Shown here: positions 16,092 to 57,075 of the stretch, piece by piece | How the letters are laid out: each line of letters opens with the position of its first letter | How positions within the stretch are numbered: position 1 is the first letter of the stretch | Origin: Myxococcaceae bacterium | GTDB lineage: Bacteria; Myxococcota; Myxococcia; Myxococcales; Myxococcaceae | Reading direction: 5' to 3' | Length of the DNA: 64,000 bases | NCBI GenBank assembly: GCA_017881265.1 | Contig: JADGRA010000068.1 | Location: forward strand, 1 to 64,000 | The notes under the pieces: model-generated | The model's input: the letters and a program-made list of their open reading frames with translations, nothing else | The model's database searches: none | Told to the model about the DNA's origin: nothing | Position numbers and translations under genes: made by a program

Positions 16092-17276
16092 ATGGAGACC
16101 CATCTGCCGGCAGCGTCCGGCCAGGACGTGCAAGGCGTCGTCGCGGACGGACGCCCCCGCCGGCTGCAGCAAGGCGACCGCGCGGTGCTGGCGCTGTTGG
16201 GGCTGTGCCGCTACCTCACGGGGGGCCAGGTGGTGGCGCTCGGCGTCGCCGGTCGGAGCGAGAAGGCCGTTGCCCGGCGGCTGCGCGGCCTGGCCGGCGA
16301 GGGCGCGTCGGCTCGGGCCCGACCCGCGCCGCTGCTGCGCGCGGTTCCCTACCGCACCTACGCCGGTGAGGCGGCACGTCTGTGGGGCCTCGGGCCGGCG
16401 GGCGCGGCGGCGGCGTCCCGGGAACTCGCCCGGGACGTGAAGGCCCTCCGCGCGGACGTGGGTGCCGTCTTCGCCGAGCACTTCGTGTGCCTGACGGACC
16501 TCTTCGTGCAGCTGGCGCGTCCCTATTTGGCCGCGGGCATCCCGCCGGCCGCCCTGCCCTTTCGCTGGAACGTCGCCGAGGACGTGGAGCTGCCCTGGCG
16601 CGAACCGGACGAGGCCGGGTGCGCCCGGGCACGCGTCATCCGCCCCGACGCGGTCCTGGAGGCGCCGGCCACCCGGAGACGCTTCTTCATCGAGTGCGAA
16701 ATGGGGACGCACACCCTCACTCCGCTGAGTCCAGACAAGCCGCAGGCCACCGTGCGCAAGCTCGAGCGCTACGACGCCTACGTCTCTGGCCTGGCCGACG
16801 TGCCGTCGCGGCGTTCCCACTACCAGCGCAAGTACCCCGACAGCTGGCCGTGCGAGGTGCTTTTCCTCGTCCGGAGCGAGAGCCGGCAGCGCGCCACCGA
16901 GGCCGCGCTGCTGGCCCGCCTCTCAGGCCTTGCCGGAACGCGGCTGACGGCCCGCGCCTTCACCCTGCAGCAGGCCGCCGCCCACTGTGCGGCGCACTCC
17001 CCACCCGCCCCGGCCCTGGGGCCGCCGGCGCCCGGAGGCCCGGACGCAGCGTCACCGCCGTGCGGCTTCTACGGCGAGGCCGAGCACGGCGCCGTCAAGG
17101 ACTTCGTCCTGGAGATGACGGCCGCGCTGGCCGAGGCCAACGCCCTGCTGCGCTGCCACGGCCTCGGCGCCATCCCCGGGCCCATGTCCAAGGCGCGCAT
17201 GCTGGACTTCCTCCGCAAGGCGCACGCCCAGATGCAGAGGCGACGGACGCCCGCCCCTCCCCCCGCCCATGCCTAG
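16092..17276 (+). CDS. Replication-relaxation family protein
   Basis: 394 residues. The N-terminal ~110 residues look like two winged-helix modules (ALLGLCRYLTGGQVVALG, AVARRLRGLAGEGA). The middle has DAVLEA and RFFIECEMGTHTL, followed by KPQATVRKLERYDAYVSG. This matches the replication-relaxation family (PF13814), found on plasmids and conjugative elements beside coupling proteins, whose core resembles a PD-(D/E)xK nuclease-like fold. GGAG lies just upstream of the ATG. It overlaps the next gene by 8 bases, so the two are translationally coupled. No classical relaxase is present, so this may be the DNA-processing partner. The link to the element is inferred from the coupling-protein neighbour. 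Confidence 0.75.
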   Translation: METHLPAASGQDVQGVVADGRPRRLQQGDRAVLALLGLCRYLTGGQVVALGVAGRSEKAVARRLRGLAGEGASARARPAPLLRAVPYRTYAGEAARLWGLGPAGAAAASRELARDVKALRADVGAVFAEHFVCLTDLFVQLARPYLAAGIPPAALPFRWNVAEDVELPWREPDEAGCARARVIRPDAVLEAPATRRRFFIECEMGTHTLTPLSPDKPQATVRKLERYDAYVSGLADVPSRRSHYQRKYPDSWPCEVLFLVRSESRQRATEAALLARLSGLAGTRLTARAFTLQQAAAHCAAHSPPAPALGPPAPGGPDAASPPCGFYGEAEHGAVKDFVLEMTAALAEANALLRCHGLGAIPGPMSKARMLDFLRKAHAQMQRRRTPAPPPAHA

Positions 17277-19062
17277 GCGCTCGCGCGGGCGGCGGCCCCT
17301 CCTCCTGCGGCTCGCCGTCGCCGGCCTTCTGGCTCTTGCCGTCACGGAGACGCTGTACCGCGCCGCCTGCGGCGCCCTTCCCCTGGCGCTGCCGCGCGCG
17401 CTGTGCGCCCGCCTGCTGTCTGAACTTCACCCCTACGGCCAGGGGCGAGCCTGGGCCCTCCACCATGGGTGGGCGTCGGTGTCGCTGGCGCTGGGGGCCG
17501 CCGCCCTGGCGACGCTTGCCCTGCGCCAGACCTTCATCCTCACCGCCGCCGCGACGGCCCGCCTCAGCGGCACCGCGGTGCGGCCGGTGGACTTCACCTT
17601 TCCCAGCCGCAGCGTTGACGTCGTGCGGGAGATTGCGCGGCGGCCGAAGGGCCACTCCTTCGTCGGGCTGACGCCACGCAAGGCCCTCTTCGGTTGGCGG
17701 TGGAGACCGGTGTACCTGTCCCCGAGGCAGAAGACGATGCACCGGCACGTCATCGGCAAGACGGGCAGCGGGAAGACGACAAGCATCCTCTGGCCCAGCG
17801 TCCTGCAGGACGCCCTGGACGGCAAAGGCGTCCTGGTGCTGTCGGCGAAGGGTTCCGATGAGGAGATTGGGATGATGAAGGCCATCGCTGCCCTGGCTGG
17901 CCGCCAGGCGCAGCTGCGCGTCTTTTCCCTTCCCGCGTGGAACGTGCCGGAGCTCTTCAGCCACGCCTACAACATGCTGTACGTCCGTCCGCGGACGAGA
18001 AACTCCCCCGGCGGAGACCCGGTGGCCACCGCCCAGCGCGTCTTCTCCGTCCTCCCCATGGGGGACAACGTCTTCTACAAGACGCAGGCCGAGGTCATGT
18101 TCACCAACCTCTGCCGCCTGCTGCACGGCATGGTGGACGCCCAGGGCACCGGCATTCCCTTCGTCCTGCGCGACGTCTCGGTGTGCCTGAAGGCCATCGG
18201 CAACACCGGCGGCTGGTCACGCGCACTCCGGCACTGCCTGGACAACTCGCTCGACCGGGAGGCGGCAGCGCAGGTGCGGGCCCAGGTGAAGCAGCTCGAC
18301 CGCGAGGTTCTCAAGTCGCTCTCGGGGATTGTCGGGGCGCTGGACAAATTCCAGAGTGACCTCGTCAACGCCTACGCGCCGGACATCGTCTTCGAGGAGA
18401 TTCTCGAAACCAACGGCCTCGTCTACATGCAGCTGCCGGCCAACCTCTTCCGCCTTCAGGCGCCCGCCCTGGGGAAAGTCATCCTCATGGACGTCCAGCA
18501 CGAGGGCAGCCTACGGCAGGTGTTTCGCCGGGTGAGGAACCAGACGCCCTTCAGCGTCACGGTGGACGAGTTCTACAACTTCGCCGACCGCAGCATCGTC
18601 GACAGCCTCAACAAGCTGCGCGATGCCAACCTCGAATACACCCTCGCCCACCAGTCGCTGGCGGACCTGGAGCTCGTCTCGCGGGAGTTCGCCACCGCCG
18701 TCTGGGACAACACCCGCACCAAGGACGTCCTCAGCCAGGACAACCCCGAGCTGTGCGACCGCATCGCCAAGTCCATCGGCACCCACCACGTGAAGGAGCT
18801 GACGGTGCGCCGCCGCGAGGGCCCGCTCGCCACCAGCCTCCTGACGGGGGAAGCCTCCTCCCGGCAGGTGGAGGCCTACCGGCTTCACCCCAACTGCATC
18901 AAGAATCTCGCCCGCTGTGGCCAGGGCTACCTGCTCTCTGACGACGGACTGTGGCCGTGCGTCTACGGCATGCTGCCGCAGCTGAGCGCCGACTACCCCC
19001 TGCACCGGAGGGACCAGGCGCGGGCGCCGGGCGTCCGCCTGTACGAGACCTTTGTCGCCTGA
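17269..19062 (+). CDS. Type IV secretion coupling ATPase (VirD4/TraG/TraD-like)
   Basis: 597 residues. Two N-terminal membrane segments (about residues 12-35 and 65-90) precede a cytoplasmic motor domain. VIGKTGSGKTTSI at about 160-172 is Walker A, and SVTVDEFYNFAD at about 428-439 is Walker B. LVLSAKGSDEEIG is the strand after the P-loop, and the C-terminal AYRLHPNCIKNLARCGQGY resembles the TraG/TraD tail. Coupling proteins recruit substrate (DNA or protein) to the secretion channel. Its channel genes lie about 15 kb downstream (36.5-45.5 kb), not adjacent. Length is normal. Confidence 0.9.
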   Translation: MPRRSRGRRPLLLRLAVAGLLALAVTETLYRAACGALPLALPRALCARLLSELHPYGQGRAWALHHGWASVSLALGAAALATLALRQTFILTAAATARLSGTAVRPVDFTFPSRSVDVVREIARRPKGHSFVGLTPRKALFGWRWRPVYLSPRQKTMHRHVIGKTGSGKTTSILWPSVLQDALDGKGVLVLSAKGSDEEIGMMKAIAALAGRQAQLRVFSLPAWNVPELFSHAYNMLYVRPRTRNSPGGDPVATAQRVFSVLPMGDNVFYKTQAEVMFTNLCRLLHGMVDAQGTGIPFVLRDVSVCLKAIGNTGGWSRALRHCLDNSLDREAAAQVRAQVKQLDREVLKSLSGIVGALDKFQSDLVNAYAPDIVFEEILETNGLVYMQLPANLFRLQAPALGKVILMDVQHEGSLRQVFRRVRNQTPFSVTVDEFYNFADRSIVDSLNKLRDANLEYTLAHQSLADLELVSREFATAVWDNTRTKDVLSQDNPELCDRIAKSIGTHHVKELTVRRREGPLATSLLTGEASSRQVEAYRLHPNCIKNLARCGQGYLLSDDGLWPCVYGMLPQLSADYPLHRRDQARAPGVRLYETFVA

Positions 19063-22313: not shown

Positions 22314-22322
22314 GGATGACAG

Positions 22323-22340
22323 GGGGCCCGAAGCGGCCCC
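22323..22340. terminator. Bidirectional terminator hairpin
   Basis: GGGGCC, a six-base loop CGAAGC, then GGCCCC in the 46-base gap between the convergent GMC oxidoreductase and aldehyde dehydrogenase genes. Position and strength fit a shared terminator. Confidence 0.5.
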
Positions 22341-22359
22341 TTCCCGACGGGGCAGGCGC

Positions 22360-23961: not shown

Positions 23962-24182
23962 GGGGTCTGTAGCTCCTGGAGCGCCCTTTTGAGAGCGACT
24001 CGCAACTTCTAACGCGCGTCTCGCCACAGGACGAGAAGCTTGCGTGCGTGAAGCGGCCCCCCTATAGCATGGGCCCGCCTTTCAGGAGGTCTTCCGGCGC
24101 GTCAAGCCGGGCCCCAAAGCTTCTAGTTGCCGCTGCCATCTCGGAGATGGTAGGGACCGGTCCCTTTGAGCCCCCCCTTTCC

Positions 24183-26959: not shown

Positions 26960-27016
26960 GGTGCGGTGGCGTCGCTGCCCGCCGCATGGCGCGACCTCCC
27001 GTCGCGCGGAGTCAAC

Positions 27017-30119: not shown

Positions 30120-30123
30120 AGCC

Positions 30124-36548: not shown

Positions 36549-36860
36549 ATGACGCCTTTTCCCCACCCCCCGTCTTCTAAGTCTGCCCAGGGCGCGCGCC
36601 TCACCGCCTTTGCTGTCCTGGCCTTCGCTGCCTCGGCGTTTGCGCAAAGCGTGGACCCGGCCGCCATGGGGCAGGGCTTCTTCGCCTACGCGCGCCCCTA
36701 CGTCGTCTGGGCGGGCGCCGGCATGGTGCTCCTCTGCGTCGCAGCTGCCATCTTCTTCAAGCCTTTCCTCAAGGAAGCACTCATCACCGCAGGCATCGTG
36801 GTGATGCTGGTGTTCCTCTTCAACACGTTCCCGGACCTGGTCCGGGCCCTCAGCCGCTGA
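36549..36860 (+). CDS. virB2: VirB2/TrbC-like pilin
   Basis: 103 residues. A long signal peptide is cleaved near SAFAQS (about residue 33), then two hydrophobic segments (YVVWAGAGMVLLCVAAAIFF and ALITAGIVVMLVFLFNTF) are joined by a short basic loop FKPFLKEA. This is the canonical VirB2/TrbC prepilin layout. A strong CCAGGAGG lies before the ATG. First structural gene of a run coupled through to 45536. It is expected to form the pilus or channel lining. The family is identified by topology and position, not by a conserved motif. Confidence 0.8.
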   Translation: MTPFPHPPSSKSAQGARLTAFAVLAFAASAFAQSVDPAAMGQGFFAYARPYVVWAGAGMVLLCVAAAIFFKPFLKEALITAGIVVMLVFLFNTFPDLVRALSR

Positions 36861-36882: not shown

Positions 36883-37212
36883 ATGGATGCGCCTGTCTAC
36901 CGGCACGCCGATGCCCGGGCCACGCTGCTCGGCCTCAACTTCCCCGGGGACTTCTTCGTCGTCCTCGTGGCGAGCTACCTGTGGCTCATGCTGCTGCGGC
37001 CCCTGCCCTTCCTGTTGGCCGCAGCCGCCACCCATGCCGGCGTCGCGCTGCTCAACCGGGACCGTCCACCGCAGCACTGGGCGCACGGGTTGGGCTTCCA
37101 GCTGCGACGGCTGCGCTTTGAGGGAGAAATCAGCGCCGCCGCCCGCAGCGCGGCCCCCCAATTCCCGTTCGGCCCCTACCGAAGCGTCGACGTGGGTGGG
37201 AGGAAACCTTGA
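36883..37212 (+). CDS. virB3: VirB3-like protein
   Basis: 109 residues. A short N-terminus (MDAPVYRHADARATLLGLN) precedes two close hydrophobic segments (FFVVLVASYLWLMLLRPLPF, LLAAAATHAGVALLNRDRP), then a cytoplasmic tail. Small two-helix proteins directly before VirB4 are VirB3 and often fuse to it. The stop overlaps the TTG start of VirB4. Expected to anchor VirB4 to the inner membrane. Confidence 0.75.
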   Translation: MDAPVYRHADARATLLGLNFPGDFFVVLVASYLWLMLLRPLPFLLAAAATHAGVALLNRDRPPQHWAHGLGFQLRRLRFEGEISAAARSAAPQFPFGPYRSVDVGGRKP

Positions 37213-39803
37213 AAGAGACGCCCCTGGCCCAGCACATCCCGCTCTGGCGAACGCTGCGGGAGGACGGCGTCACGGCCCTCGTCACCCCCGCGCTCGACTA
37301 CGTGGGCGGTCTTGGACTTCGCGGCATCGACACGCGCTTTCTGAAGGACGAGGAGTGCAGCCAGCGAGGGGAGGCGCTCCGGGAGCTGCTCGCCGGCCTC
37401 GACGACGAGGTGAGCCTCCTCTTCCTGTACCGCGTCCGGGAGGACGTCGAGGCAGACCTTTCGGCCTACCAGGATGGCGTCGCCAATGGAGCGACGCCGG
37501 CGGAGCGGGCCTACGTCGCGGCGAAGGTGCGCTGGCTCCGCCAGCAGAAGCTGCGCCGGGGCGAGCTCCGCCTCTTCTTCTCCTCCGCGGGAGGCAACGG
37601 GCCGCTGGACCGCGGCGTCCTCGGCGCGCCGCTGCTTTTCAAGAATGCCGAGCGCCTCTCCCATCGCATCCACGCCGCGCGCTTGCAGGCCCTGCGTGGC
37701 CTGCGGGACCGGCTGCGCGCGCGGCTGGCAGCGGCCGGCATCCAGTCCCGGGAGCTCGAGCCCAAGGACGTCTGGCAGTTGCACTATGAATTGCTCAATC
37801 CCGGCCGCACCCGCAGGCCCGGGGCGGCCTGTCCCACCGTCGAACTCCTGGACAACCTCTGGACGGAGGCGCTGACACGGCGAGAGGGACACCATGTCCT
37901 CGAGTACACCGAGGCCGAGTGCCTGTGCTTCGAATCCATCTCCGAGGAGCACGGCTACTTCCGCCAGGGGGGCCTCCTCCGCCGCGTGGCCACGCTCAAG
38001 GCACTGCCGGAGGCACGGACGCGGCCCTTCTGCGCCGAGCCGCTGCAGGCACTCGCCCACCCGCTCACCGGCCAGGCGTTTGGGTACACGCTGGCCGTCG
38101 CCGTGCGCCTTCGCCCTCAAGCGCGGGCGAAATTCTTTCTCAACCAGCAGCACAAGCTCGTCTCGGCCCTGCGCAGCCTGGTCCACCAGGTGAGCGGCGA
38201 GGATGCCCGGAGGTCCGTCGAGGACGCGGACAAACAAGGTGCCATCCTCGCCCTCTTCCAGGAGCTCAACTCGCTCTCCTCCAAACTGGTGGACGTCTCC
38301 GTCACCCTCCTCCTCGACGCCGACACGCTGGATGAACTCGAGGCGCGGACCGAGGCAGCGCGCGACAGCTTTCGTCGGCTCGGCAACAGCGAACTGCTGG
38401 TGGAGCACGTCGCCCAGCTTCCCTGCTACTTCGCCGTCTTTCCCGGTGCCGGCGCCTACCAGGTTCGTCGCAAGGGCTGCACCACCCGGAATGCTGCGGA
38501 CCTGCTTCCACTCTTCGAGCCGTGGGGCGGCGGCAGCAGCGCGGACAGCCTGCTCACCACGCCACTCGGCACCACGCTGCGGTTCGGGCTCTTCGACACG
38601 AGCCTGGGGAATGCCTTTCACGGCCTCATGTGCGCCGACACCGGGGCCGGAAAATCTCTCACCGCCGGCGCGCTTGCCATCGATGCCTACATCGCCGGCA
38701 AGGACGTCATCCTCGTCGACAACGGCGGGAGCTGGTCGCGCCTGACGCGCCTTTTGGGAGGGACCCTGGTGGAGGTGACGCTCAACACACCGCTCTGCCC
38801 CTTCCTCCCCTACCGCGACATGCTGGACCGCGAGGAACTGGCGAGGACGGGACTCGAACAGCTCGACAGCGCGCTGGTGCAGGACGTCGTCGGCTTCCTG
38901 CAAGTGTGCGTCGAGGACCGGGAGCTGCCCTCGTTCACCGTCCCCCAGCAGAACCTGGTGGGCCAGGCCGTTACGCGCAGCTACCAGGAGCGCTTTCGCG
39001 CGCGGCCCGCGGAGCGTCCCGTGATGGGCGACCTCCAGCAGGCGCTCCGCCAGCTGTCCGAAGACGCGATGCTGCACCCGGAGGACCGAGCGCTGGCGGC
39101 ACTGCTGGTGCGCAGGCTCGAGCTGTTCTGCACGGGCACCTACGGCCGCTTCCTCAACCGGCCGAGCGAGCTTCGCTACGACGGGCGCCTTCTCACCTTC
39201 GAGATGGGAGCCATCGGCAAGGACCCGCTGCTGAAGCGAATTGCGTTGGCTGCCGTCATGGGCACCGTCACCGCCCGTGCCGCCGCCCGAAGAAACCGGA
39301 CGCTGTGCGCCATCGACGAGGCGCACGACTACCTCGGAGACAGCGCGGCAGCCGACGCCTTCCTCGGGAAGGCCTACGCCAAGATGCGGAAATTCGACGT
39401 GGCGATGTGGGCCATCAGCCAGAAATTCGAGGACTTCCAGCGCTCGCGGGCCGCAGCCACCATCATCGGCAACTCCTTCCTCAAGCTGTTCCTCTGGCAC
39501 TCCTCTGGCTGGGAGGTGGTGCGCGACGCCTTCGGGTGGCCGGACAGCGTCTACCGGCAGTTCCGGGCGCTCGAGCGCGTCCCCTTCCACTACACGGACT
39601 TTCTCCTGGTTTACGGCGAGCGCTATGCCACCGTGCGCCACGCCGTCCCGCCGCTTGCCTACTGGCTGCTCACCACGCACGGAGAGGACAGGCGGCTGCT
39701 GGAGCGGGCCCGACAGAAGAATCCACACCTCGACGAGCTCGCCCTCCTCCAGGAGCTCTCCGCCCGCTACCCCAGGGGCGCCTCGTCCCCCGGGCCGCAA
39801 TGA
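37209..39803 (+). CDS. virB4: VirB4/TraC-type secretion ATPase
   Basis: 864 residues from a TTG with GGGAGG upstream, overlapping the VirB3 stop. The N-terminal half resembles the CagE/TrbE/VirB region. CADTGAGKSLTAGALAI at about 475-490 is Walker A, and LCAIDEAHDYLG at about 698-709 is Walker B; DNGGSWSRLTRLLGG matches the TraC-type insertion after the P-loop. The C-terminal SSGWEVVRDAFGWP and YGERYATVRH are typical. Energises pilus assembly and substrate transfer at the inner membrane. Length is normal. The most secure marker that this locus is a T4SS. Confidence 0.94.
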   Translation: MKETPLAQHIPLWRTLREDGVTALVTPALDYVGGLGLRGIDTRFLKDEECSQRGEALRELLAGLDDEVSLLFLYRVREDVEADLSAYQDGVANGATPAERAYVAAKVRWLRQQKLRRGELRLFFSSAGGNGPLDRGVLGAPLLFKNAERLSHRIHAARLQALRGLRDRLRARLAAAGIQSRELEPKDVWQLHYELLNPGRTRRPGAACPTVELLDNLWTEALTRREGHHVLEYTEAECLCFESISEEHGYFRQGGLLRRVATLKALPEARTRPFCAEPLQALAHPLTGQAFGYTLAVAVRLRPQARAKFFLNQQHKLVSALRSLVHQVSGEDARRSVEDADKQGAILALFQELNSLSSKLVDVSVTLLLDADTLDELEARTEAARDSFRRLGNSELLVEHVAQLPCYFAVFPGAGAYQVRRKGCTTRNAADLLPLFEPWGGGSSADSLLTTPLGTTLRFGLFDTSLGNAFHGLMCADTGAGKSLTAGALAIDAYIAGKDVILVDNGGSWSRLTRLLGGTLVEVTLNTPLCPFLPYRDMLDREELARTGLEQLDSALVQDVVGFLQVCVEDRELPSFTVPQQNLVGQAVTRSYQERFRARPAERPVMGDLQQALRQLSEDAMLHPEDRALAALLVRRLELFCTGTYGRFLNRPSELRYDGRLLTFEMGAIGKDPLLKRIALAAVMGTVTARAAARRNRTLCAIDEAHDYLGDSAAADAFLGKAYAKMRKFDVAMWAISQKFEDFQRSRAAATIIGNSFLKLFLWHSSGWEVVRDAFGWPDSVYRQFRALERVPFHYTDFLLVYGERYATVRHAVPPLAYWLLTTHGEDRRLLERARQKNPHLDELALLQELSARYPRGASSPGPQ

Positions 39804-39825: not shown

Positions 39826-40719
39826 ATGCCCCGCCTCCCCCCACGCCCCTCTGCGTCGCTGTTCACCGCCATTGTCGCCGCTGGCTTGGCCCTGCTGCTC
39901 GTCACGCCCGAGGCCTCAGCCGACCTCTTCGGCGCCGACGTCTCGCTGCTAGGGACGCTGGTCTCCCAGGGCGCCCAGGAGCTTTCCACCGCCGCGCAGG
40001 CCCTCGGGACCCTCCGGGAGGGGGTGACGTCGGCCCAGCGGATGGTGGGTTTTGCCACCCAGGCCCAAACCCTCTTTTCCCGCTTCGCCACTTCCCGAGT
40101 GGCGGATTTTGGAGCGGACAGCTTCGGCCTTGCCCACGGGACCCTGCCCGTCTCCGACGGGAGTCGGCTCCGGAGTGGCGTCGCCCCCTGGGCACCGGCC
40201 ACCGGCGAGCTCCGGGGCGTCAGCCGCCAGTGCGCAAGCGACGTCACGTCGGGCGCCTCCGCTTGCCGCCAAGTCCATGACGCCCTCACTCCCACCGATG
40301 CGCAGAGCGCGGTCAGGCGCACCTTCGGACCTGCGCTGCAGCCGGACACGCAGGCCGGCGACTATGAGGTGGCGCGTGCGCTCTCCGCTGCCGACGCGCA
40401 CCAGCAGCAGGAGGGCTCGCGTGCGGCTGTTTCTGCCGCGAGTCGAAGCGCCGCGTGCGCAAGCGGAGAGGACGCAGCGGTGTGTGGACTGGCCCAGACG
40501 GCACGCCAGGAGAGCCAGCTCGACGCCGTCAACGAGCAGCTGGCCGAGGCGAACCGGCTCCAGGCCGTCCGCCTGGCGCTGCAAAACGCCGAGCGCAAGC
40601 GCGCACTGGGCGAGGCGCAGGAGCGCCGGACGGTGGTAACGGAGGGGTGGAAGGCGCTGCGAACGCCCACCCTCGCCGTGTCCGCCGACGGCGTCAGCCT
40701 CCTCGGAGGCGACCGGTGA
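39826..40719 (+). CDS. virB5: VirB5/TrbJ-like periplasmic protein
   Basis: 297 residues. A signal peptide ends at SADLFGAD (about residue 36). A coiled-coil-prone body follows (LVSQGAQELSTAAQALGTL, REGVTSAQRMVGFATQAQTLF), four Cys residues in the middle (QCASDV, ACRQV, SAACASG, AVCGLAQ), and a long helix (QESQLDAVNEQLAEANRLQA). This is the pattern of the minor pilin/adhesin VirB5 and the TrbJ family. It starts after a CAGGAG site 22 bases past VirB4. Family inferred from position and helical pattern. Confidence 0.68.
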   Translation: MPRLPPRPSASLFTAIVAAGLALLLVTPEASADLFGADVSLLGTLVSQGAQELSTAAQALGTLREGVTSAQRMVGFATQAQTLFSRFATSRVADFGADSFGLAHGTLPVSDGSRLRSGVAPWAPATGELRGVSRQCASDVTSGASACRQVHDALTPTDAQSAVRRTFGPALQPDTQAGDYEVARALSAADAHQQQEGSRAAVSAASRSAACASGEDAAVCGLAQTARQESQLDAVNEQLAEANRLQAVRLALQNAERKRALGEAQERRTVVTEGWKALRTPTLAVSADGVSLLGGDR

Positions 40720-41582
40720 GGGCGCGGCCGTGGCTTGTCCTTGGCGCCCTGGGCTGGCCGGGACTCGCCCTTGCCGCGGATGGCGACGCCCTGGACCTCC
40801 GTGGCGGGGCAGTCGGCGAGCTCACCGCCCGCACCCTCGGCATCGCGCACGGGCTACTCGCCTTTCTCCTCGTCCTCGGACTCGTCGTCGAGCTGCTGCG
40901 GGGGCCAGGACAGCCCCGGCGCTACCTGGCCGTCGTTTGGAGGACGCTCCTCGTTCTCGGTCTGCTGCAGGCCTACACCTTCCTCGCGGGCTCGCTGGTG
41001 AAGCAGTGCACCGCGCTCGCGCAAAGCCTCGCGCCGCAGGAGGCCGACGCGCCTCTGCAACGCTACAAATCAGCCGTCGCGCAGAGCTTCGCCGCGGCGC
41101 CGGGCCCCGACCCAGGGACTTCCGACGCAGCCAAGCCGTCTGGCCTCGGCGGGCTCTTCTTCGACGCGGGCATCTCCCTGCTCCTCCTGCTGGCGGGAGC
41201 CATCCACTGGGTGTTCACGGAACTCTCCCGCATCCTCATCAGCTTCTTCTACGCCATCGGCCCGCTGGCGCTGGCCTTCTATGTGCCCGGACTGGATGCC
41301 CCGCTGCGGTGGCTGCGAAGCCTCACCACCGTCTCCTGTTGGCCCGTGGTTTCCTCCATCCTCCTCCACCTCTCCACGTCCGTGCTCCACCGCGCCAGCA
41401 GCACGGGCTCGGGCGCAACCTTCGGGGCCGTGGCGTCCTCGCTGCTGTTGTGCGTGCTGGCCTTTGCCACGCCCAGGATTGCCTCCGCGCTGGTCGGGGG
41501 TGTGGGCAACCTCCTTGGCGAAGGGGCCGCCGCGGCCCTGCGCGTTGCCGGCGGGGCGGCCGCCGCAGGGGTGTTACCGTGA
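40716..41582 (+). CDS. virB6: VirB6/TrbL-like polytopic membrane protein
   Basis: 288 residues from a GTG overlapping the VirB5 stop, with CGGAGG upstream. A cleavable N-terminal signal (ALGWPGLALAADGD) precedes about six hydrophobic segments (IAHGLLAFLLVLGLVVELL, ISLLLLLAGAIHWVF, ISFFYAIGPLALAFYV, ASSLLLCVLAFATP). The Trp-containing segment near the middle matches TrbL/VirB6. VirB6 shapes the inner-membrane channel. Overlap with the next gene indicates coupling. Confidence 0.75.
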   Translation: MRARPWLVLGALGWPGLALAADGDALDLRGGAVGELTARTLGIAHGLLAFLLVLGLVVELLRGPGQPRRYLAVVWRTLLVLGLLQAYTFLAGSLVKQCTALAQSLAPQEADAPLQRYKSAVAQSFAAAPGPDPGTSDAAKPSGLGGLFFDAGISLLLLLAGAIHWVFTELSRILISFFYAIGPLALAFYVPGLDAPLRWLRSLTTVSCWPVVSSILLHLSTSVLHRASSTGSGATFGAVASSLLLCVLAFATPRIASALVGGVGNLLGEGAAAALRVAGGAAAAGVLP

Positions 41583-42325
41583 GTCCGCTTCCCAGGCCGC
41601 CGGAAGCGGGCCCCACGGTCGTCCGCGCCTCCGGGGCGCGGACACCTGCCGGCCCGGCAGCGGTCTGGGCAGCCATGGCGCGGCAAGCCCAGTGGAAGAG
41701 TTGGGCCCTCGTCCTGGCCTTCTCCCTGTGTGCGCTCCAGGGGCTGGTCATGCTTAAGCTTGCCCGCAAGGAGCCAGACATCGTGCTCATCGCGCCCGAT
41801 GGCAGGAGCACCTACGTCAACCGCAGCGTGGCGGGGGATGCGCTCGTCCGCTTCCTCGAGGAACAGCGTCAGCTGCCGAACGACGTCACCATCTTTCATT
41901 TCACCCGGGACTTCCTTCAGCACTTTTTCGCCATCGACTCGCTGAGCTACGCCTCCTCCTTCGCCGAGGCGCTCGGAATGTTGTCGGCGGGCTTCCGCGA
42001 GCGCGTGGCACGCGAGGCCGCGGCTTCCAGGGTGCTGGAGGCGGTCCGGGCGACTCACAGCCGAGCCACCCTCACGTTCGAGAGTCTCGACCTCGTGGAG
42101 CGGACGACGGAGGCCCTTCACCTCCGGGCCGTGCTTCTCCGAAGAACCGAGAGCTTCAGCGAGGGAGCCCTGGTGTCCTTCGACCGTCTCGAGGTGGACC
42201 TCTACGAGTCGGTGGTTCCACGCACCGCCGCCCACCCGGATGGGCTCGTCATTGGCCAATTCACCAGCCGGTCCGAGAAGGTGGACCCAAGCAGCGCCTC
42301 GGAGCCATCCGCCCATGCGCCTTAG
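41579..42325 (+). CDS. virB8: VirB8/TraE-like inner-membrane protein
   Basis: 248 residues from a GTG overlapping the VirB6 stop. About 45 cytoplasmic residues precede one membrane helix (WALVLAFSLCALQGLVML). The periplasmic domain starts with IVLIAPDGRSTYVNRSVAGDALV and has alpha/beta alternation with RLEVDLYESVVPRT at the end. This is the VirB8/TraE topology and fold order, seen in the assembly nucleators of T4SS. Identified from topology and position between B6 and B10. Confidence 0.68.
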   Translation: MSPLPRPPEAGPTVVRASGARTPAGPAAVWAAMARQAQWKSWALVLAFSLCALQGLVMLKLARKEPDIVLIAPDGRSTYVNRSVAGDALVRFLEEQRQLPNDVTIFHFTRDFLQHFFAIDSLSYASSFAEALGMLSAGFRERVAREAAASRVLEAVRATHSRATLTFESLDLVERTTEALHLRAVLLRRTESFSEGALVSFDRLEVDLYESVVPRTAAHPDGLVIGQFTSRSEKVDPSSASEPSAHAP

Positions 42326-43256
42326 CGTCCTTGGTACCGCTGCGCTGCTCGCCGTGCTGGCCGGTACCGGGGCCCCGGCGACGCCCCGGAAGGACTCCGA
42401 TGCGGTCGTCACCAGCGGCAAGCGGGCCCTCAAACGTCGGAGCCTCGTGGTGACGGATGCCAACTTCAACGAGGTGCAGGTGGTGCACGTCGCCGCCGGA
42501 GTGCCGACGACGCTCAGCTTCCGCCAGCCGCTCCGGGCCGAAAGCGTCATCCTGGCAGACGTCACCAACGCCTTTCTCCCGGTGAAGGCCACGGAGAGCA
42601 GCATCGTCCTCATCCCCAAGTGGGACCTGGGCCAGCGTTCGATGACCACCCTCACCGTCACGCTCGCCGATGGCACCATCCTGCCCCTGCTTCTCACCAC
42701 CGTCTCCGGAGAAGCCGACATCGGCGTGGACATCTCTGTCGCCCTCGTCCAACAGGCGCCACCGGAGTCGGCCACTGTCCTCAAGGCCTCGCTTCTGGAA
42801 CTGCGCAGCGAGCTCGACGAGTGCCGCGCCGACCAGGGCACCGCCGGCATTGCGAAGCTGGCCAGTCTCGTCCTGCAACAGGACCTGTCGCGCCCGCAGG
42901 TCTTCGAACGACACGAATTGCACCGGCGCGACAAGCAGGAGCGTCTTCTGGTGGACGTGCGGGCCGCCTACCGGATTTTCGGACACACCTACCTGGTGGT
43001 CACCCTGGAAAACCGTGACCCCTCCCGCGCCTGGGTGCTCGACCGTCCGGAGCTCAGCGTCACGGGCGGCAGCCAGTCCATCGACGTCTCGGTGACGGCC
43101 TTCCGGATGGACACCACGGCCATCGCCCCCAACGACACGGGAAAGCTGGTGGTGGTTTTCCAGACGCCACCCCAGGGCAGTGGCAACAGCTTGAGTCTTC
43201 AACTCCTCGAAAAGAATGGGAGCCGGCACCTCCGGCTCGACGGCCTGTCGCTTTGA
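42315..43256 (+). CDS. DUF2381 family protein in the VirB9 position
   Basis: 313 residues with a signal peptide (VLGTAALLAVLAGTGAPA). RRSLVVTDANFNEVQVVHV and FRQPLRAESVILADV identify the DUF2381/TIGR02268 family, previously described as a Myxococcus paralogous family. The N-terminal part follows the VirB9/TraK pattern: hydrophobic strand, TTLSF, a strand ending in IVLIPKW, then TTLTVTLADG and LLLTTVSGEADIGVDISVAL. It is encoded exactly between VirB8 and the VirB10-type gene and overlaps VirB8 by 11 bases. Likely the outer-membrane core protein that binds VirB10. Family recognition is firm; the VirB9 role is inferred. Confidence 0.75.
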   Translation: MRLSVLGTAALLAVLAGTGAPATPRKDSDAVVTSGKRALKRRSLVVTDANFNEVQVVHVAAGVPTTLSFRQPLRAESVILADVTNAFLPVKATESSIVLIPKWDLGQRSMTTLTVTLADGTILPLLLTTVSGEADIGVDISVALVQQAPPESATVLKASLLELRSELDECRADQGTAGIAKLASLVLQQDLSRPQVFERHELHRRDKQERLLVDVRAAYRIFGHTYLVVTLENRDPSRAWVLDRPELSVTGGSQSIDVSVTAFRMDTTAIAPNDTGKLVVVFQTPPQGSGNSLSLQLLEKNGSRHLRLDGLSL

Positions 43257-43292: not shown

Positions 43293-45536
43293 ATGTACGA
43301 CGACATCGACCCCCGAAACCTCCCGGCTGGAACGCTGGTGGACGGTTACACCGTGCTCGGCAAGCTCGGCGGCGGCGGGATGGGGGAAATCTACCGGGTG
43401 CAGCGGGGCCGGGAGGTCTTCGCCCTGAAGGTGCAGGGGGAGCGCCTCAGCGAGGCCATGGACCCACTGAAGCGTGAAGAGTTGGAGGCGCGGTCTCGCC
43501 GCGAGGCTGCCGTCCTGCTGAGCCTCACCCACCCCAACATTCTGGCCATCATCGGCAGTGGCCGTTGGCCAGACAAAGGCGGCTACCTCTACCTCATCAC
43601 CGAATTGGTGGCCGGCGAGCCGCTGGACCGCTGGCACGAGCGCCGGGGGCCATCGCTGCGGCAGCTGGCACGCGTCTTCCAGCGCGTCGCGGACGCGCTC
43701 GACTACATGCACCGCGCGGGCATCTACCACCGGGACTTGAAGGACCCCAACGTCCTGGTGCGGGACGATGGGACGCCCGTCGTCATCGACCTCGGCATCG
43801 CGCGGTCTCCGGCCGCGTACACGCTCACGCGTGTCGGCACCGTCATCGGTACCACGACGCACCTCTCCCCGGGCGTCTGCCGGTACCTGGTCGGGGAGAA
43901 GTCCCACGCCTACCGCTTCGGCGCGCACGACGACCTGCATGCGCTCGGCTTCATGCTGTACGAGAGGCTCACCGGAACGGCGCCCTTCCGCCAGCGCAGC
44001 GACGTCGAGTGGCCCGAGTTCGACTACTACCACCAGGTGATGGAGCACGTACCTCCCGCGCCGAGAGCCCTGTGGCCCGCGGTCCCAGAGCAACTGTCGG
44101 CGCTCACCATGCGCCTGCTCGCCAAGACGCCCGAGGCTGGTGTCCGCGACGCGGCCGCGCTGCGGGACGAACTCGACGCCACCTTGCGGGCCGCCCCGGC
44201 CTTTTGGGATGAACCGTTCGCTGTCCCGCGTGGCGTCCAGAGAACGGACTTGCCGCGCAGCGCTCCGGTGAGGCTGCCCATGCCGGACAGTGTCGAGCGG
44301 CCTCCCGCCGAAAAAGGCAACGGCGGTGCTGGCAGCACGGACCAAGCCATCCAGGCGCTGCAGACGGGAGTGTCCGTGCCGCCCCCGCCACCGCCCGACT
44401 TCCGGCCCCCCACGCGCGAAGGGCCCCCACCCTTCGTCCCTCCGGAAGCCGCCCCGGAAAAACCGGCCCCTACCCGCTTGAGTGCCTTCAACGACACCGC
44501 CCTCCGCAAGGTGGCCGAGCACCTGCAGCCCGCGTCGCGTCCCAAGCGGCGCCTGGGAGCGCTGGGCCTCACCCTGGCCGGGGCGACGCTCCTCACCGGG
44601 GGAGCGTTCGTCGCGAAGTCACTCGCGGACCGCCCCCGCGCGGCGCCGAAGAGCCTGCTCGAAAGGTACCGGGAGGACCTCGCCAAGGAGACAACGGCAG
44701 AAGAGCGCTCGGCTCCCGCAACCCAGGTCTCCGTCGGCCCCGCCCTGCCGGCGCCCGCCCCCTCGGTGCTGCCCACGGCCCCGCCTGTGTCGTCCCCGTC
44801 CGGGGGCGAGACGTTGTCCCCCCCGCTGCCCGGGGGGCCAAGCAGCGCCCCGTCACCGAGTGACGCGAAGGCCATCCAGGCCGAACTCGAGCGTGCCTAC
44901 GGCGCGCGGCGTCCCACCCTGCCCGGCAAGCCGCCGCCGCCGAGTCCGGGCAAGCCCAGCTGGGTGAAGGGCGTCGAGGTGGTCGACGCCAAGCCAGCGG
45001 TCGCTGGCGAGCGGAAATTCGGAGGCCGGTACGGTGACCACCTGCGGCTAGAATTGCGCAGCAACCTCGACAGCCGGTTGTGTGGCTCGGGCGCCGTGGA
45101 GGCTGTCCTTGTCCGCCCCTATGTCGTCAATGGGGAGGTGGTGCTCCCCAACCGGACACTGGCCTACGGCCAATGCACGGCCCAGGGCGGCCGTTTCCTC
45201 GTCAGTTTCCAGCGCCTCCGTCTGCCCGACGGGACCGAGGTGCACTTTGACGGGGTGGCCATGGACGTTGCGGACGGCAAGCCTGGCCTGTTGGCCAACC
45301 GTCGCCTTGGCGGGGCGAGTACCGGGCAGGACACGGTCACCGGCGCCGTCCTGCGGGGAGCCGCGTCGACGGCCCTGGCCAGCGCCACCGCTGACGGTAG
45401 TCTGGGCGGTCAGTTAGCCAATGGCGCTGGACAAACCGCCCTCAATGCGCCCGCAGCGACCGCAGCGGAGGCCGAAGCCGCCATTCTCCTCGATGCCGGC
45501 GCAGGCATTGACGTCTTCGTTCGCCAGCGTTTCTGA
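43293..45536 (+). CDS. Ser/Thr protein kinase fused to VirB10/TrbI-type T4SS core protein
   Basis: 747 residues. 1-300 is a eukaryotic-type kinase: Gly loop LGGGGMGEIYRV (25-36), invariant Lys46 in FALKV, HRDLKDPN with catalytic Asp148, Lys150 and Asn153, and DLG (166-168) instead of DFG. APE is replaced by LSPG. A Pro-rich stretch (about 365-400) leads to one membrane helix (about 421-442), a second Pro/Ser-rich periplasmic spacer (470-560), and a 190-residue beta domain: LELRSNLDSRLCGSGAVE, VLPNRTLAYGQCTAQGGRF, PDGTEVHFDGVAMDVADG, ending GAGIDVFVRQRF. Order and motifs match VirB10/TrbI. VirB10 normally has a short cytoplasmic tail; here it is a kinase. Likely a sensor-gate of the channel. 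Confidence 0.85.
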   Translation: MYDDIDPRNLPAGTLVDGYTVLGKLGGGGMGEIYRVQRGREVFALKVQGERLSEAMDPLKREELEARSRREAAVLLSLTHPNILAIIGSGRWPDKGGYLYLITELVAGEPLDRWHERRGPSLRQLARVFQRVADALDYMHRAGIYHRDLKDPNVLVRDDGTPVVIDLGIARSPAAYTLTRVGTVIGTTTHLSPGVCRYLVGEKSHAYRFGAHDDLHALGFMLYERLTGTAPFRQRSDVEWPEFDYYHQVMEHVPPAPRALWPAVPEQLSALTMRLLAKTPEAGVRDAAALRDELDATLRAAPAFWDEPFAVPRGVQRTDLPRSAPVRLPMPDSVERPPAEKGNGGAGSTDQAIQALQTGVSVPPPPPPDFRPPTREGPPPFVPPEAAPEKPAPTRLSAFNDTALRKVAEHLQPASRPKRRLGALGLTLAGATLLTGGAFVAKSLADRPRAAPKSLLERYREDLAKETTAEERSAPATQVSVGPALPAPAPSVLPTAPPVSSPSGGETLSPPLPGGPSSAPSPSDAKAIQAELERAYGARRPTLPGKPPPPSPGKPSWVKGVEVVDAKPAVAGERKFGGRYGDHLRLELRSNLDSRLCGSGAVEAVLVRPYVVNGEVVLPNRTLAYGQCTAQGGRFLVSFQRLRLPDGTEVHFDGVAMDVADGKPGLLANRRLGGASTGQDTVTGAVLRGAASTALASATADGSLGGQLANGAGQTALNAPAATAAEAEAAILLDAGAGIDVFVRQRF

Positions 45537-52990: not shown

Positions 52991-55747
52991 ATGCGAGCGG
53001 GATTGTGGAGGAGGGTTGCCGCCGCTGGCGCGATGGTTCTCGCCGGGCTGGTCGCGGCGCAGTGCGGGGGTGGCGAGCCCCCCATCCGTCTCGCGCCAGG
53101 AAACCCGGACGGCGGACTCGACATCTCCGGGTACGCCGTGAAGGGCCCCATCTCCGGTGGCACCGTCACGGCTTACCGGTTGCTCCCGGACATGTCCCGG
53201 GGCGAACAACTCGCCAGCACCACCACCGACTCGAGTGGCTTCTTCGGGCTCTCCCTGCCCGCTTTCACAGGGGACGTCCTTCTCGTCGTCAACGGCGGGA
53301 GCTACCTTGAGGAGGCCCTTGTCGACGCGGACGCTGGCGTGCCGGGACCGACACTCACCGTCAACGTCGACTTCGTGGGCATCTTCCTCACTTACCAACC
53401 CGGGCAACCCGCCACGGCCAACATCACCCCCATCTCGCACCTGGCCTATTCGCTGGCCCGCTACCACGTCCGGAATCTCGGCGAGCCGTTGGCAAAGGCC
53501 GTCAGCGACGCCTTCACACACCTGGGCAGTCACTTCGGCAACGTCCCCGGCGTCGCGACGGACCTCGACTGGCGCACCGTTGTCCCGACTACCCTCGGGG
53601 CCGGGGACGGCGCGCAACTGACGGCTGCGCAGCGGGCTGCGCTGGTGCTCGCCGGCCTGTCCGAAGTCGCCGCCACCATCTCCAGCCGTGCCGCCATCTC
53701 CCCCGGAGGCCCGGTCAACGCCCTGTCGCTGCTGACGGCCCTGGCCGAGGACCTCGAAGCGGACGGCCTCTTCGACGGCCTGGGCACGGGAGGCCGTCAG
53801 CTGCTGCTTCCCGCGGGTGGTTCCGTCCGCCCCACCGGCCCAACTGCAACCGCGCTCGATGGGTCAACCGTCCGTCTTGCACTCGCCTCGGCCATTGCCA
53901 CCTTTGTCCGGTCTGGCAGCAACACCAGCAGCATCACCATCCCCGACGTCGCCGCCGTCACAGGCGCCCTAAGCGCCGATTCGGACACCTACCTCTTCAA
54001 GTCCCCTGGGACGCCTTTCGACGTCACACCGCCGAAGGTCACGGTCGTGTCGGCGCCGCCGCCCTACACCAACGAAAACGCGGTGAGCTTCTCGGTCGCG
54101 GCAAATGCAGGACCGAATTCGACCGGCGTTAAGGCGGTCATCGCGAAAACTGGCGACGGGACTGAACTCACCGGAGTCAATACGACAGGGAACGTGTGGA
54201 CGTTTTCCAACGTCCTTGCTGGCGGCGCTCAGCCGTACTTCGAGGTCTGGGCAATCGACAACACCAACAACTCGGGCGAGCAATTCCCCGTTGGGGACTA
54301 CCACCTGCGCCTGCCGTGTCTCCAGGACCAGGTCGCTCCCACCATTGTTCAGGACTTCAGCGTGCCGAGTTACCTCGATGAGCGCACGATGCAGCTCGCG
54401 AGCAATGCCGTTCCCGCTCAGTTCACTTGGCCAGCGAGCCTTCCAAGGGCTGTTGGGCCTGGTCCCGAAGCTGCCGTGTGGAAGAGTTCGGTCCGACTCT
54501 CGTGGGGAACAGCTCAGCCGACGGGGGAAAGCCTAGAGAGCCCCAATTCGAACAACGTGCCGTTCATCCAAATCGGTATTCCGTTTGAGGCAACCACCGA
54601 TGCTCCCATCGCCTCGGTCGCGTACAGCATCGCTGTCCAAGGCGGAGCCACCTCGAGAGGTTCGCTCATCGCCGCCCAAAAAATGCCTCAGGGCACCGTC
54701 TATTACTACCTCCCTTTGAGCCAAGAGACGATGCCTGACCTCGCTCACTCGTCCGTTAGCCCGCTCACGTTCAAAATTTCGATCACTGTGACGGACGCTG
54801 CAGGCAACGCAACCACGAACACGCTCGAGGACGCGACGAGCGGAGACTTTCTCTTTCACGTGATTGGCCCGCCATTCTACGTGGAACAGGACACAGCCTA
54901 CCCAGACGCCGGCGACACGAAGTCCGTCTACCCATTCGCCCTGGCCAACGGCACGTACCCGAGCAAGTTCGCTGGGGACAATGGCCGGGAGATTGCCCGG
55001 CAGGTACGCTTCGTCGTCTACAACCCCTACCCTGTCGCGGTGCCGTTCAGCACGGCCGTCCCGAGCTACCTGACCACGGGCTCGGAGGAGTGGGACGACT
55101 CCGTCTGGACCACTGGCAGCGTCGTCTGGGACGTGACTTCCCTCTGCGCCGCCGGGCCTCCCTGCGACCCCCAAGCGACGCAACCCCAGCCTTACGTGAC
55201 GACGCTCGGCAGCATGACCTACTCCTGCGAGGCCGCGAGCAGTCCCCAGAGTCAGAGCAACCCGCCCGCTGCCGTCTTCACCAGCCCCACGGGGGAACTC
55301 TCGGCCTGGCAATTCGGAGCGGAGGGGTTGCCTCCGGGCGGCTACAACGACCGAGTCGTGATTCCGGCTGCGCAGGGGAGTACCGCGGGAGCCATCGTCG
55401 TCTACGCCGGGCGCCCCTGGAGCTCTTTCGGCCTGCCCGCCTACTCCTTTGGCACCGACTCGAACCCCGACGGCGTCCTGCGCTTTTACCGCTTCATCCA
55501 GGACCTCTGGCAGCGCGGCGCGAGCCAGGGGACGGTCACCTGCAACTGCAGCATGGCGCCCCCAGTCTGTCAGCACGGAAGGCTGTACCAATTCCCGCAG
55601 CTGCGTTGGACCAAGGTCCTGAGTTCCGCGAGCGAGTCCTTTTCGGGCACGTGGACGTACCAGAGCTACGCGCCGCTCACGCCCACGACGGACCTCGGGG
55701 ATGGAGCACCGCGCTCCATCGGCGTCACTGGGGACGCGAGCTACTGA
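52991..55747 (+). CDS. Large multidomain lipoprotein
   Basis: 918 residues from ATG 52991, which has GGGGAGGG five bases upstream (ATG 52976 lacks one). The signal ends AGLVAAQC. A carboxypeptidase-regulatory-like beta domain (VKGPISGGTVTAYRLLPD, TTDSSGFFGLSLPAF) is followed by a helical region, then Ig/fibronectin-like parts (VTVVSAPPPYTNENAVSFSV, FKISITVTDAAGNATTN) and a Trp/Tyr-rich C-terminal domain. Characteristic of myxobacterial surface adhesins. No catalytic motif. First gene of a likely three-gene unit with 55855 and 56467. Confidence 0.75.
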   Translation: MRAGLWRRVAAAGAMVLAGLVAAQCGGGEPPIRLAPGNPDGGLDISGYAVKGPISGGTVTAYRLLPDMSRGEQLASTTTDSSGFFGLSLPAFTGDVLLVVNGGSYLEEALVDADAGVPGPTLTVNVDFVGIFLTYQPGQPATANITPISHLAYSLARYHVRNLGEPLAKAVSDAFTHLGSHFGNVPGVATDLDWRTVVPTTLGAGDGAQLTAAQRAALVLAGLSEVAATISSRAAISPGGPVNALSLLTALAEDLEADGLFDGLGTGGRQLLLPAGGSVRPTGPTATALDGSTVRLALASAIATFVRSGSNTSSITIPDVAAVTGALSADSDTYLFKSPGTPFDVTPPKVTVVSAPPPYTNENAVSFSVAANAGPNSTGVKAVIAKTGDGTELTGVNTTGNVWTFSNVLAGGAQPYFEVWAIDNTNNSGEQFPVGDYHLRLPCLQDQVAPTIVQDFSVPSYLDERTMQLASNAVPAQFTWPASLPRAVGPGPEAAVWKSSVRLSWGTAQPTGESLESPNSNNVPFIQIGIPFEATTDAPIASVAYSIAVQGGATSRGSLIAAQKMPQGTVYYYLPLSQETMPDLAHSSVSPLTFKISITVTDAAGNATTNTLEDATSGDFLFHVIGPPFYVEQDTAYPDAGDTKSVYPFALANGTYPSKFAGDNGREIARQVRFVVYNPYPVAVPFSTAVPSYLTTGSEEWDDSVWTTGSVVWDVTSLCAAGPPCDPQATQPQPYVTTLGSMTYSCEAASSPQSQSNPPAAVFTSPTGELSAWQFGAEGLPPGGYNDRVVIPAAQGSTAGAIVVYAGRPWSSFGLPAYSFGTDSNPDGVLRFYRFIQDLWQRGASQGTVTCNCSMAPPVCQHGRLYQFPQLRWTKVLSSASESFSGTWTYQSYAPLTPTTDLGDGAPRSIGVTGDASY

Positions 55748-55854: not shown

Positions 55855-56466
55855 ATGATGTTGGTAGTCGCAGGGCTTCTGAGCGCTGCGCCGGCACAGG
55901 CTGACCGCGGGGCGCTGAGCCTCGACGTCGGCGCGGGTGCAGCCGGGCTCAACCTTCCGGCCCCGTACGCCACCGGCGGTGGCAATACGGTTGGCGTCGG
56001 CTTCGAGACGATGGTGGGCCTCCGCTATGCCCTCACCAATGCGCTCGAGTTCACGGCCGCGGCGTATTTCGAACCGAACGTCACCTATGTCCACGACGGC
56101 GTCGGCGTTCAGGTGCCTGGCAACGCACGGCCTCTCCCTGGAACGGTGACGAACTCGCTGTACTTCGTCGGGGCTGTCGGAGGGCTGCGCTACGTCGGCG
56201 GCTCGGTGTGGAAGCTGGTGGTTGGGCTGGAGGCGGGTTGGTGCCACCGCGTCTACACGGGGGTGCGCTTCGACGGGAGCGCGAGCTTTCCGCTGCCGAG
56301 CTTCAGCACCAACAACTTCGTGCTGCAGCCCCTCCTCGGAGTGGAGTGGGCGTTCGCCGACCACTGGAGCGCGTCCCTCATTCCACGCTTCATGGTCCTC
56401 ATCGGACCCGACGCGACTCTGGGAGCATCACTCTTGCTGTCCATCTCTTACAGCTGGTTCCTCTAG
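55855..56466 (+). CDS. Outer-membrane beta-barrel protein
   Basis: 203 residues. MMLVVAGLLSAAPAQA is a signal peptide. A GTG at 55771 with AGGAAGG upstream is an alternative that adds a basic lead. The body alternates strands (FETMVGLRYALTNALEFTAA, SLYFVGAVGGLRYVGG, LLSISYSWFL) in an OmpA/OmpW-like barrel, ending in Leu after Phe. One stop-to-start step (GTG 56467) links it to the transglycosylase. Confidence 0.7.
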   Translation: MMLVVAGLLSAAPAQADRGALSLDVGAGAAGLNLPAPYATGGGNTVGVGFETMVGLRYALTNALEFTAAAYFEPNVTYVHDGVGVQVPGNARPLPGTVTNSLYFVGAVGGLRYVGGSVWKLVVGLEAGWCHRVYTGVRFDGSASFPLPSFSTNNFVLQPLLGVEWAFADHWSASLIPRFMVLIGPDATLGASLLLSISYSWFL

Positions 56467-57075
56467 GTGCTGGGCGGAAGCAAACGGGCAGGCAGTCTGG
56501 GGCGGCTGGTCGCGCGTCCACTTTGCCGGTCAACACTCGCCCTCGCGCTGCTCATGGTGGCACCGATTGGCAGCGCACAGCCTCGCCCGGGAAGCGCTCG
56601 ACCCATGGGGTGTTCCGGCTACCAGGGCGAAATTGCGGCGGCCGTCCTCGACGCGGCAGCTGTCTGGCCGGTGCCGGCGTCTCTCATCCGGGCGGTCATC
56701 CTACGGGAAAGTGCCTTCAACCCAGGCGCTCTGTCGCCGGCCGGGGCCATTGGCTTGATGCAGGTGTTGCCGTCCAATGCCCGCCGCCTCGGAATGACTC
56801 CCCAAGGGCTGTGGAATCCCGCGAGCAACATCCTCGCTGGGACGCGCATGCTGGCCGTCCTCCTCCAGCATTACCAGGGCGACGTCATCTCGGCCCTGGT
56901 GGCCTACAACGCACGTGCGCGCCGCCCATTTGCGCCGCTTCCCGAAAACCTGGAGACCCCCGGCTACGTCCGCGGCGTCTTACGCTCGTGGTCGGCTTTT
57001 CAGCGCTGCGAGGCGCAGGCCCGGGCGGCGCGTGCGCAGTCGGACCTTGGCGTTGGGGATCGCACGGACTCGTAA
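56467..57075 (+). CDS. Lytic transglycosylase (SLT, VirB1-like)
   Basis: 202 residues from a GTG at 56467, immediately after the previous stop. A signal (LALALLMVAPIGSAQP) precedes an SLT fold: RAVILRESAFNPGA carries the catalytic Glu, followed by GAIGLMQVLPSNARRLG, NPASNILAGTRML and VVAYNA-like LVAYNARAR. Cleaves murein glycan strands without water. VirB1-type enzymes open the wall for T4SS channels, and none is encoded inside the T4SS locus, so this is a candidate, though 11 kb away in another unit. Confidence 0.88.
   Translation: MLGGSKRAGSLGRLVARPLCRSTLALALLMVAPIGSAQPRPGSARPMGCSGYQGEIAAAVLDAAAVWPVPASLIRAVILRESAFNPGALSPAGAIGLMQVLPSNARRLGMTPQGLWNPASNILAGTRMLAVLLQHYQGDVISALVAYNARARRPFAPLPENLETPGYVRGVLRSWSAFQRCEAQARAARAQSDLGVGDRTDS

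Follow-up and report, generated by a model that had tools for sequence, protein, structure and literature searches.

The last gene of a type IV secretion operon in the stretch of DNA analysed here (64,000 nucleotides from a member of the Myxococcaceae, referred to as the window) raises the question whether a Ser/Thr protein kinase can be a built-in part of a secretion channel, and if so what it would do there. The gene runs on the forward strand from an ATG at 43293 to a stop codon that ends at 45536, and encodes 747 amino acids in a single unbroken frame, as an earlier sequence-only reading of this DNA had claimed. The codon-position G+C of the frame fits the norm of this genome. Considering Pfam matches, an alignment of 14 homologues, an AF2 model, hhalign comparisons and hydrophobicity, the product is composed, from N- to C-terminus, of a kinase domain (residues ~15-300), a Pro-rich cytoplasmic linker, a membrane helix, a Pro-rich periplasmic spacer and a VirB10/TrbI-like domain (~560-747). 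We are highly confident of this architecture.

The sequence-only reading had pointed to the danger that the assembly had merged two separate genes. This is not so. A search with the C-terminal domain in 195 genomes of the phylum picked out 14 genomes, which belong to 11 genera. On inspection of the reading frames, the kinase proved to be missing from only one of the matches (L041), where a related operon encodes an ordinary VirB10-like protein without a kinase. More fusions are present on the plasmid NZ_CP123279 of the soil isolate Myxococcus sp. MxC21-1 and on pYRE (NZ_CP102771) of M. stipitatus, where the database records describe both proteins merely as 'protein kinase', and a profile search added another two loci (L165 and L166). 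Altogether, the fusion is found in 20 loci (one of them, L037, partial) from about 10 genera of Myxococcota; Anaeromyxobacter oryzisoli, A. terrae and A. soli are among the named relatives. The occurrence of the same fusion in independent assemblies, in one single-contig genome (G032; 5,013,479 bases) and on two complete plasmids rules out an assembly or gene-fusion artefact, the chance of which we consider negligible. The recurrence of the architecture in 20 loci is far beyond chance.

The C-terminal domain (residues 561-747; 44973..45533, +) was assigned on basis of the Pfam family TrbI, hhalign and the AF2 model. TrbI (PF03743) matches residues 587-723 with an E-value of 2e-7, the score of 31.5 bits being slightly below the curated cut-off of 35, and is matched at E<=0.01 by 11 of the 14 homologues. 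Comparison by hhalign of the fusion C-domain profile to seven canonical VirB10/TrbI proteins gave 94.6% (E 6.8e-8 for this single comparison), whereas non-corresponding T4SS subunits that were compared with each other as controls remained below 3%. An earlier mixed TrbI/TraB alignment had given no match, but the clean VirB10/TrbI alignment did. The sequence-only reading had singled out the VirB10/TrbI motifs LCGSGAVE, PDGTEVHF and GIDVFV and a C-terminal beta domain, and all three motifs are indeed present. In the AF2 model the strands mostly have a pLDDT of 80-92, and a helical hairpin, the helices of which have a pLDDT below 50, precedes the last two strands, which is the order expected of a VirB10 C-domain. 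A sequence search connected the domain to no solved structure, and Foldseek of the whole fusion against the PDB, with only kinases among the 50 matches listed, was uninformative on this part. As judged from the sequence profiles, the C-terminal domain is VirB10/TrbI-like but very divergent.

The genomic context, which the sequence-only reading had also interpreted as a type IV secretion operon, is in line with this assignment. The order of genes in the window is B2, B3, B4, B5, B6, B8, DUF2381 and kinase::B10, with the fusion gene closing the operon, and in other genomes such fusions likewise lie beside VirB4, the main group of loci sharing the order B3-B4-B5-B6-B8-DUF2381-kinase::B10. The VirB4/TraC-type ATPase (37209..39803, +) is firm (TIGR02746 E 2.6e-52, TIGR00929 E 1.1e-27), and the membrane protein encoded at 40716..41582 (+) is VirB6/TrbL-like (hhalign to TrbL 94.4%, E 9e-8). 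The first gene encodes a VirB2-pilin-like protein with a signal peptide and two hydrophobic helices (36549..36860, +), recognised by a conserved sequence pattern and its position, and is followed by a VirB3-position protein (36883..37212, +) that is conserved before VirB4 and has no profile match. A secreted protein takes the VirB5/TrbJ position (39826..40719, +; start uncertain), for which the conserved position is the sole basis. The VirB8-like protein (41579..42325, +; start uncertain) was assigned by its position, its size and a single N-terminal membrane helix, with weak profile support, and is conserved in the compared loci. In sequence profile comparisons of B2, B3, B5, B8 and B9 to the canonical P-type proteins little was matched, and none of the genes scanned could be recognised as VirB11.

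Directly upstream of the fusion lies a protein of the DUF2381/TIGR02268 family (42315..43256, +; Pfam E 5e-49). Its sequence profile does not match the P-type TrbG, and its top structural neighbours are DotH, VirB9 of X. citri, TrwF of R388 and subunits of the F-plasmid core complex. More specifically, the VIA comparisons gave Z 13.4 with DotH (108 aligned, rmsd 2.8), Z 10.9 with X. citri VirB9 (198 aligned, rmsd 8.7 over both domains) and Z 10.3 with the N-domain of TrwF (101 aligned, rmsd 2.8). By these matches DUF2381, a family of unknown function, has the two-domain VirB9 fold, and its member here is the VirB9-fold partner of the fusion.

The kinase domain (residues 19-281; 43347..44135, +) was delineated by Pfam (Pkinase, E 2.4e-31), the 14-homologue alignment and Foldseek, where PknB is the best match of the fusion model (E 4e-21). 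The model NF033483 matches the kinase part only, far under its cut-off, and the Pfam scan of the fusion gave no match to PASTA repeats. All main kinase motifs are present just as described before: the Gly loop, K46, E71, H146-R147-D148-L-K-x-x-N153 and D166-L-G, where DLG instead of DFG is shared by no aligned member other than the window protein and L026, the relative closest to it. The kinase is of the HRD type, with K46, E71, H146, R147, D148, N153 and D166 invariant in 14/14 aligned members, and has conserved threonines in the activation segment, of which Thr179 is invariant and Thr187 nearly so. Between two Anaeromyxobacter copies (L031 and L032, from A. terrae and A. oryzisoli) dN/dS was 0.076 for the kinase, 0.075 for the VirB10 domain, 0.055 for VirB4 and 0.28 for the linker. 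Thus, the kinase is kept as strictly as the channel and is, by this estimate, under strong purifying selection. A reading as pseudokinase is disfavoured by the invariant catalytic residues together with the dN/dS values. The same observations bear on the proposal that the domain is a structural adaptor that binds VirB4 or VirD4 and is not used as an enzyme. The cytoplasmic tails of VirB10 proteins do bind ATPases (PMC12624023), and the existence of the kinase-free relative L041, from which it follows that the kinase is dispensable for some of these systems, would suit a scaffold as well; but the catalytic residues have all remained invariant over a long divergence under strong purifying selection, and this makes a mere scaffold quite improbable.

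How the kinase is connected to the channel follows from the hydrophobicity and the model. The sole hydrophobic segment of the window protein comprises residues 423-441 and is preceded, on the kinase side, by basic residues. The same arrangement is seen in most homologues, L028 having a second, borderline segment and the pMxC21 homologue a membrane segment below the threshold of 1.5. We infer that the N-terminus is inside and the C-terminal part periplasmic. In the AF2 model, which was built on the 14 homologues, the kinase domain is confident and the linker is disordered except for a helix at 402-411; the membrane helix (424-445) is followed by the disordered Pro-rich spacer. The single membrane helix and the spacer thereby agree with the sequence-only reading. 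Its proposal that the kinase replaces the cytoplasmic tail of VirB10 held in part: kinase and VirB10 are fused, but a simple replacement is not what is found. Since a long Pro-rich linker with a juxtamembrane helix that is conserved among homologues intervenes, the VirB10 tail may have been kept between kinase and membrane. The presence of this long, fast-evolving linker next to an HRD-type kinase with conserved activation-segment threonines would also fit an assembly checkpoint, in which the main targets of the kinase are the kinase itself or the linker, so that the building or dismantling of the secretion ring is tuned and not the transfer of substrate. The present evidence does not separate such self-regulation from phosphorylation of the ATPases; we consider it possible, at rather low odds.

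Our preferred reading is that the fusion serves as VirB10 subunit in a conjugative T4SS of Myxococcota, with a predicted competent Hanks-type kinase at its cytoplasmic N-terminus. It is known that VirB10 spans the distance from cytoplasm to outer membrane and that its N-terminal domains touch VirB4 and VirD4; these domains have been suggested to act as a switch, and the route of the signal to the core was called an open question in a 2025 review (PMC12624023). In the arrangement that we propose, the VirB10 subunits and the VirB9-fold DUF2381 proteins would form a ring at the outer membrane, and once assembled this ring would bring a circle of kinase domains next to VirB4 and VirD4 at the base. 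The kinases would be drawn together first by this assembly and later by a signal from outside that is transmitted through VirB9/VirB10 (contact with a recipient, possibly via a surface protein), and could then phosphorylate one another in the activation segment. Once they are activated, their next targets could be the juxtamembrane segment of VirB10, VirB4, VirD4 or the relaxase-like protein, the phosphorylation of which would switch the machine from assembly to DNA transfer. The topology, the ring and the activation are extrapolated here from known T4SS and kinase biology, and the kinase activity, the substrates and the gating of secretion by the fusion are predicted. To the overall statement, that a ring of kinase-bearing VirB10 is activated by assembly or an outside signal and licenses DNA transfer, we assign a probability of about 0.5. 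Against it speak the divergence of the VirB10 domain, the low confidence of the antenna region in the model, the kinase-free relative L041, and the scan of the element genes, in which neither a phosphatase nor an FHA reader could be recognised.

That DNA would be the substrate is suggested by the other genes of the element. A Replic_Relax protein (16092..17276, +; Pfam E 9.5e-14), a candidate relaxase, shows linkage to the fusion in further genomes as well as on both plasmids, and the adjoining VirD4-type coupling protein (17269..19062, +; TraG-D_C E 1.6e-9) has homologues with 57-66% identity in other genomes, where they are likewise linked to the fusion. Downstream of the operon are a large secreted surface protein (53033..55747, +) with homologues in 11 of the 12 compared element sets, the gene of which is found directly 3' of the fusion gene in several other loci, a conserved predicted outer-membrane beta-barrel protein (55855..56466, +; OMP_b-brl E 4.5e-5, below the cut-off) and a conserved VirB1-like lytic transglycosylase (56605..57075, +; SLT E 2e-23). 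Because VirD4, Replic_Relax, the transglycosylase and the surface protein belong to the same element, it looks like a conjugation system, as predicted from its genes. A point against transfer is that the complete plasmids NZ_CP123279 and NZ_CP102771, which both carry VirB4, VirD4 and Replic_Relax, are both typed as non-mobilizable by MOB-suite (PLSDB). Standard plasmid typing overlooks an entire class of likely conjugation systems. The paper on the plasmid pMF1 mentions only a TraC-like protein (PMC4700575).

In the window the element genes are interrupted by metabolic genes (~20-34 kb) and, in the stretch at 46-53 kb, by other genes, and the element may therefore be integrated and rearranged; the ends of the contig do not overlap, hence there is no sign of a plasmid. 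The block between VirD4 and the T4SS (20466-32643) contains genes for a GMC oxidoreductase, an aldehyde dehydrogenase, a GH3 protein, an inositol-phosphate synthase, an aminotransferase, an LPG-synthase-like protein, an inositol monophosphatase and an MMPL protein, and looks like cargo or a lipid pathway. A ketopantoate-reductase-like gene (49281-50191) is apparently split over two open reading frames and is a possible pseudogene within the element. In addition, a large secreted protein is encoded next to the fusion gene in the window (46594-48861, -) and in L053 (21393-22886), the plasmid counterpart of which is a Big_7 Ig-like protein. Directly after VirD4 lies a gene for an ECF-type sigma factor (19152-19664).

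The association between a VirB9-fold protein and a kinase extends beyond secretion loci. DUF2381 proteins were found in 78 of the 195 genomes, often with at least 10 copies in Myxococcaceae (examples of stand-alone loci are L098-L117, L058-L087 and L169), and no VirB4 was present near the stand-alone loci examined. Among the best 30 DUF2381 loci, a small downstream protein with a reduced VirB10-like domain was found in 23 and a downstream kinase in 6, including the T4SS of G032; in the remaining one neither was found. The stand-alone kinases are built like the fusion, with the kinase domain followed by a membrane helix, a Pro-rich part and the C-domain. Their C-domain matches the fusion C-domain profile with 91% (E 1e-6; one member E 2e-8) and canonical VirB10 weakly (32%). 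In three loci a second kinase-like gene directly follows the stand-alone kinase (L099 6882-8141, L110 6905-8200 and L112 671-1963); these genes lack a clear HRD motif and might encode a pseudokinase partner.

A tree was made of the fusion kinases, the stand-alone DUF2381 partner kinases and 18 further kinases encoded in the same genome. The majority of the fusion kinases cluster with the stand-alone kinases in a single clade (98/93, 18 rows), the support being 84/79 when L039 and L040 are included, whereas the kinases of pYRE and L038 sit in a different lineage (100/99). Since a single clade of all fusion kinases is rejected (p-AU 7e-5), the kinase met VirB10 on two or more occasions, or was swapped. 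In the VirB4 tree, the comparison of one versus several origins of kinase-bearing systems favoured neither (p 0.32). As VirB9 and VirB10 are general parts of the T4SS, the stand-alone DUF2381 pair is apparently a signalling module that was derived from a T4SS core; in the DUF2381 tree the placement of these modules is supported at 57/62 and the root is not firm. The many modules of a VirB9-fold protein and a kinase with a miniature VirB10 domain that exist apart from T4SS genes indicate that such a module can be kept without secretion, and lend some weight to a reversal of the proposed signal: the T4SS core would be a receptor, VirB9/VirB10 sensing contact or the state of the envelope and the kinase signalling to the cell (transcription, motility). 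The position of the ECF sigma factor gene next to VirD4 would fit as well, but none of the 12 other element sets compared contains a homologue of this gene, and the kinase of the T4SS is physically built into the secretion core; reverse signalling is a tentative option, which we rate no higher than a minority view. In a broader sense, VirB9 and the kinase-bearing VirB10 might constitute a transplantable trans-envelope signalling device that was born in conjugation machines of Myxococcota, recruited its kinase repeatedly, and was then domesticated and multiplied as stand-alone modules, a scenario for and against which we see about equal odds. If true, a receptor-kinase family has been made out of a secretion channel, with no secretion machine left.

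A kinase on the inner end of VirB10 could account for the way in which such machines perceive a signal and are activated, and with an enzyme of measurable output at the suspected VirB10 switch the question of the signal route becomes open to testing. Moreover, DUF2381, multi-copy in Myxococcaceae, gains a fold and a likely role. The sequence-only reading had mentioned neither the VirB9 fold of DUF2381 nor the VirD4, relaxase-like, VirB1-like and surface-protein genes of the element, the involvement of more than one kinase lineage or the stand-alone modules. The sequence-only reading knew of no VirB10 of this form, and neither a kinase-bearing VirB10 nor any paper on DUF2381/TIGR02268 was found in the open-access literature searched; the VirB10 with built-in kinase apparently is a conserved arrangement that has gone undescribed. 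A similar principle is found in type VI secretion, where the Ser/Thr kinase of the PpkA threonine-phosphorylation pathway is reported to switch the secretion machine post-translationally (PMC3953482, PMC5995506). The likeness is in working principle alone, PpkA being a separate protein of a different machine, whereas the fusion kinase is covalently part of the channel and has no recognised FHA protein. With the transmembrane Hanks kinases of the PknB type the fusion shares the internal kinase, the single membrane helix and an extracytoplasmic C-terminal domain, but this domain is VirB10-like, PASTA repeats were not found, and the gene belongs to a T4SS operon. The stand-alone DUF2381/TIGR02268 pairs are alike in that downstream of a VirB9-fold gene lies one for a kinase whose VirB10-like domain is reduced, and in that their kinases group with those of the fusions; they differ from the fusion in that VirB4 is not alongside, the C-domain is without antenna helices, and the partner is more often a small lipoprotein-like protein. 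Finally, the fusion resembles the VirB10/TrbI/TraB family in its single inner-membrane helix, Pro-rich periplasmic part and C-terminal beta domain, and in the location of its gene directly after VirB9 in an operon with VirB4 and VirB6, whereas it is set apart from that family by a ~300-residue active-type kinase on the cytoplasmic end, by the strong divergence of its C-domain and by a VirB9 partner that belongs to the DUF2381 family.
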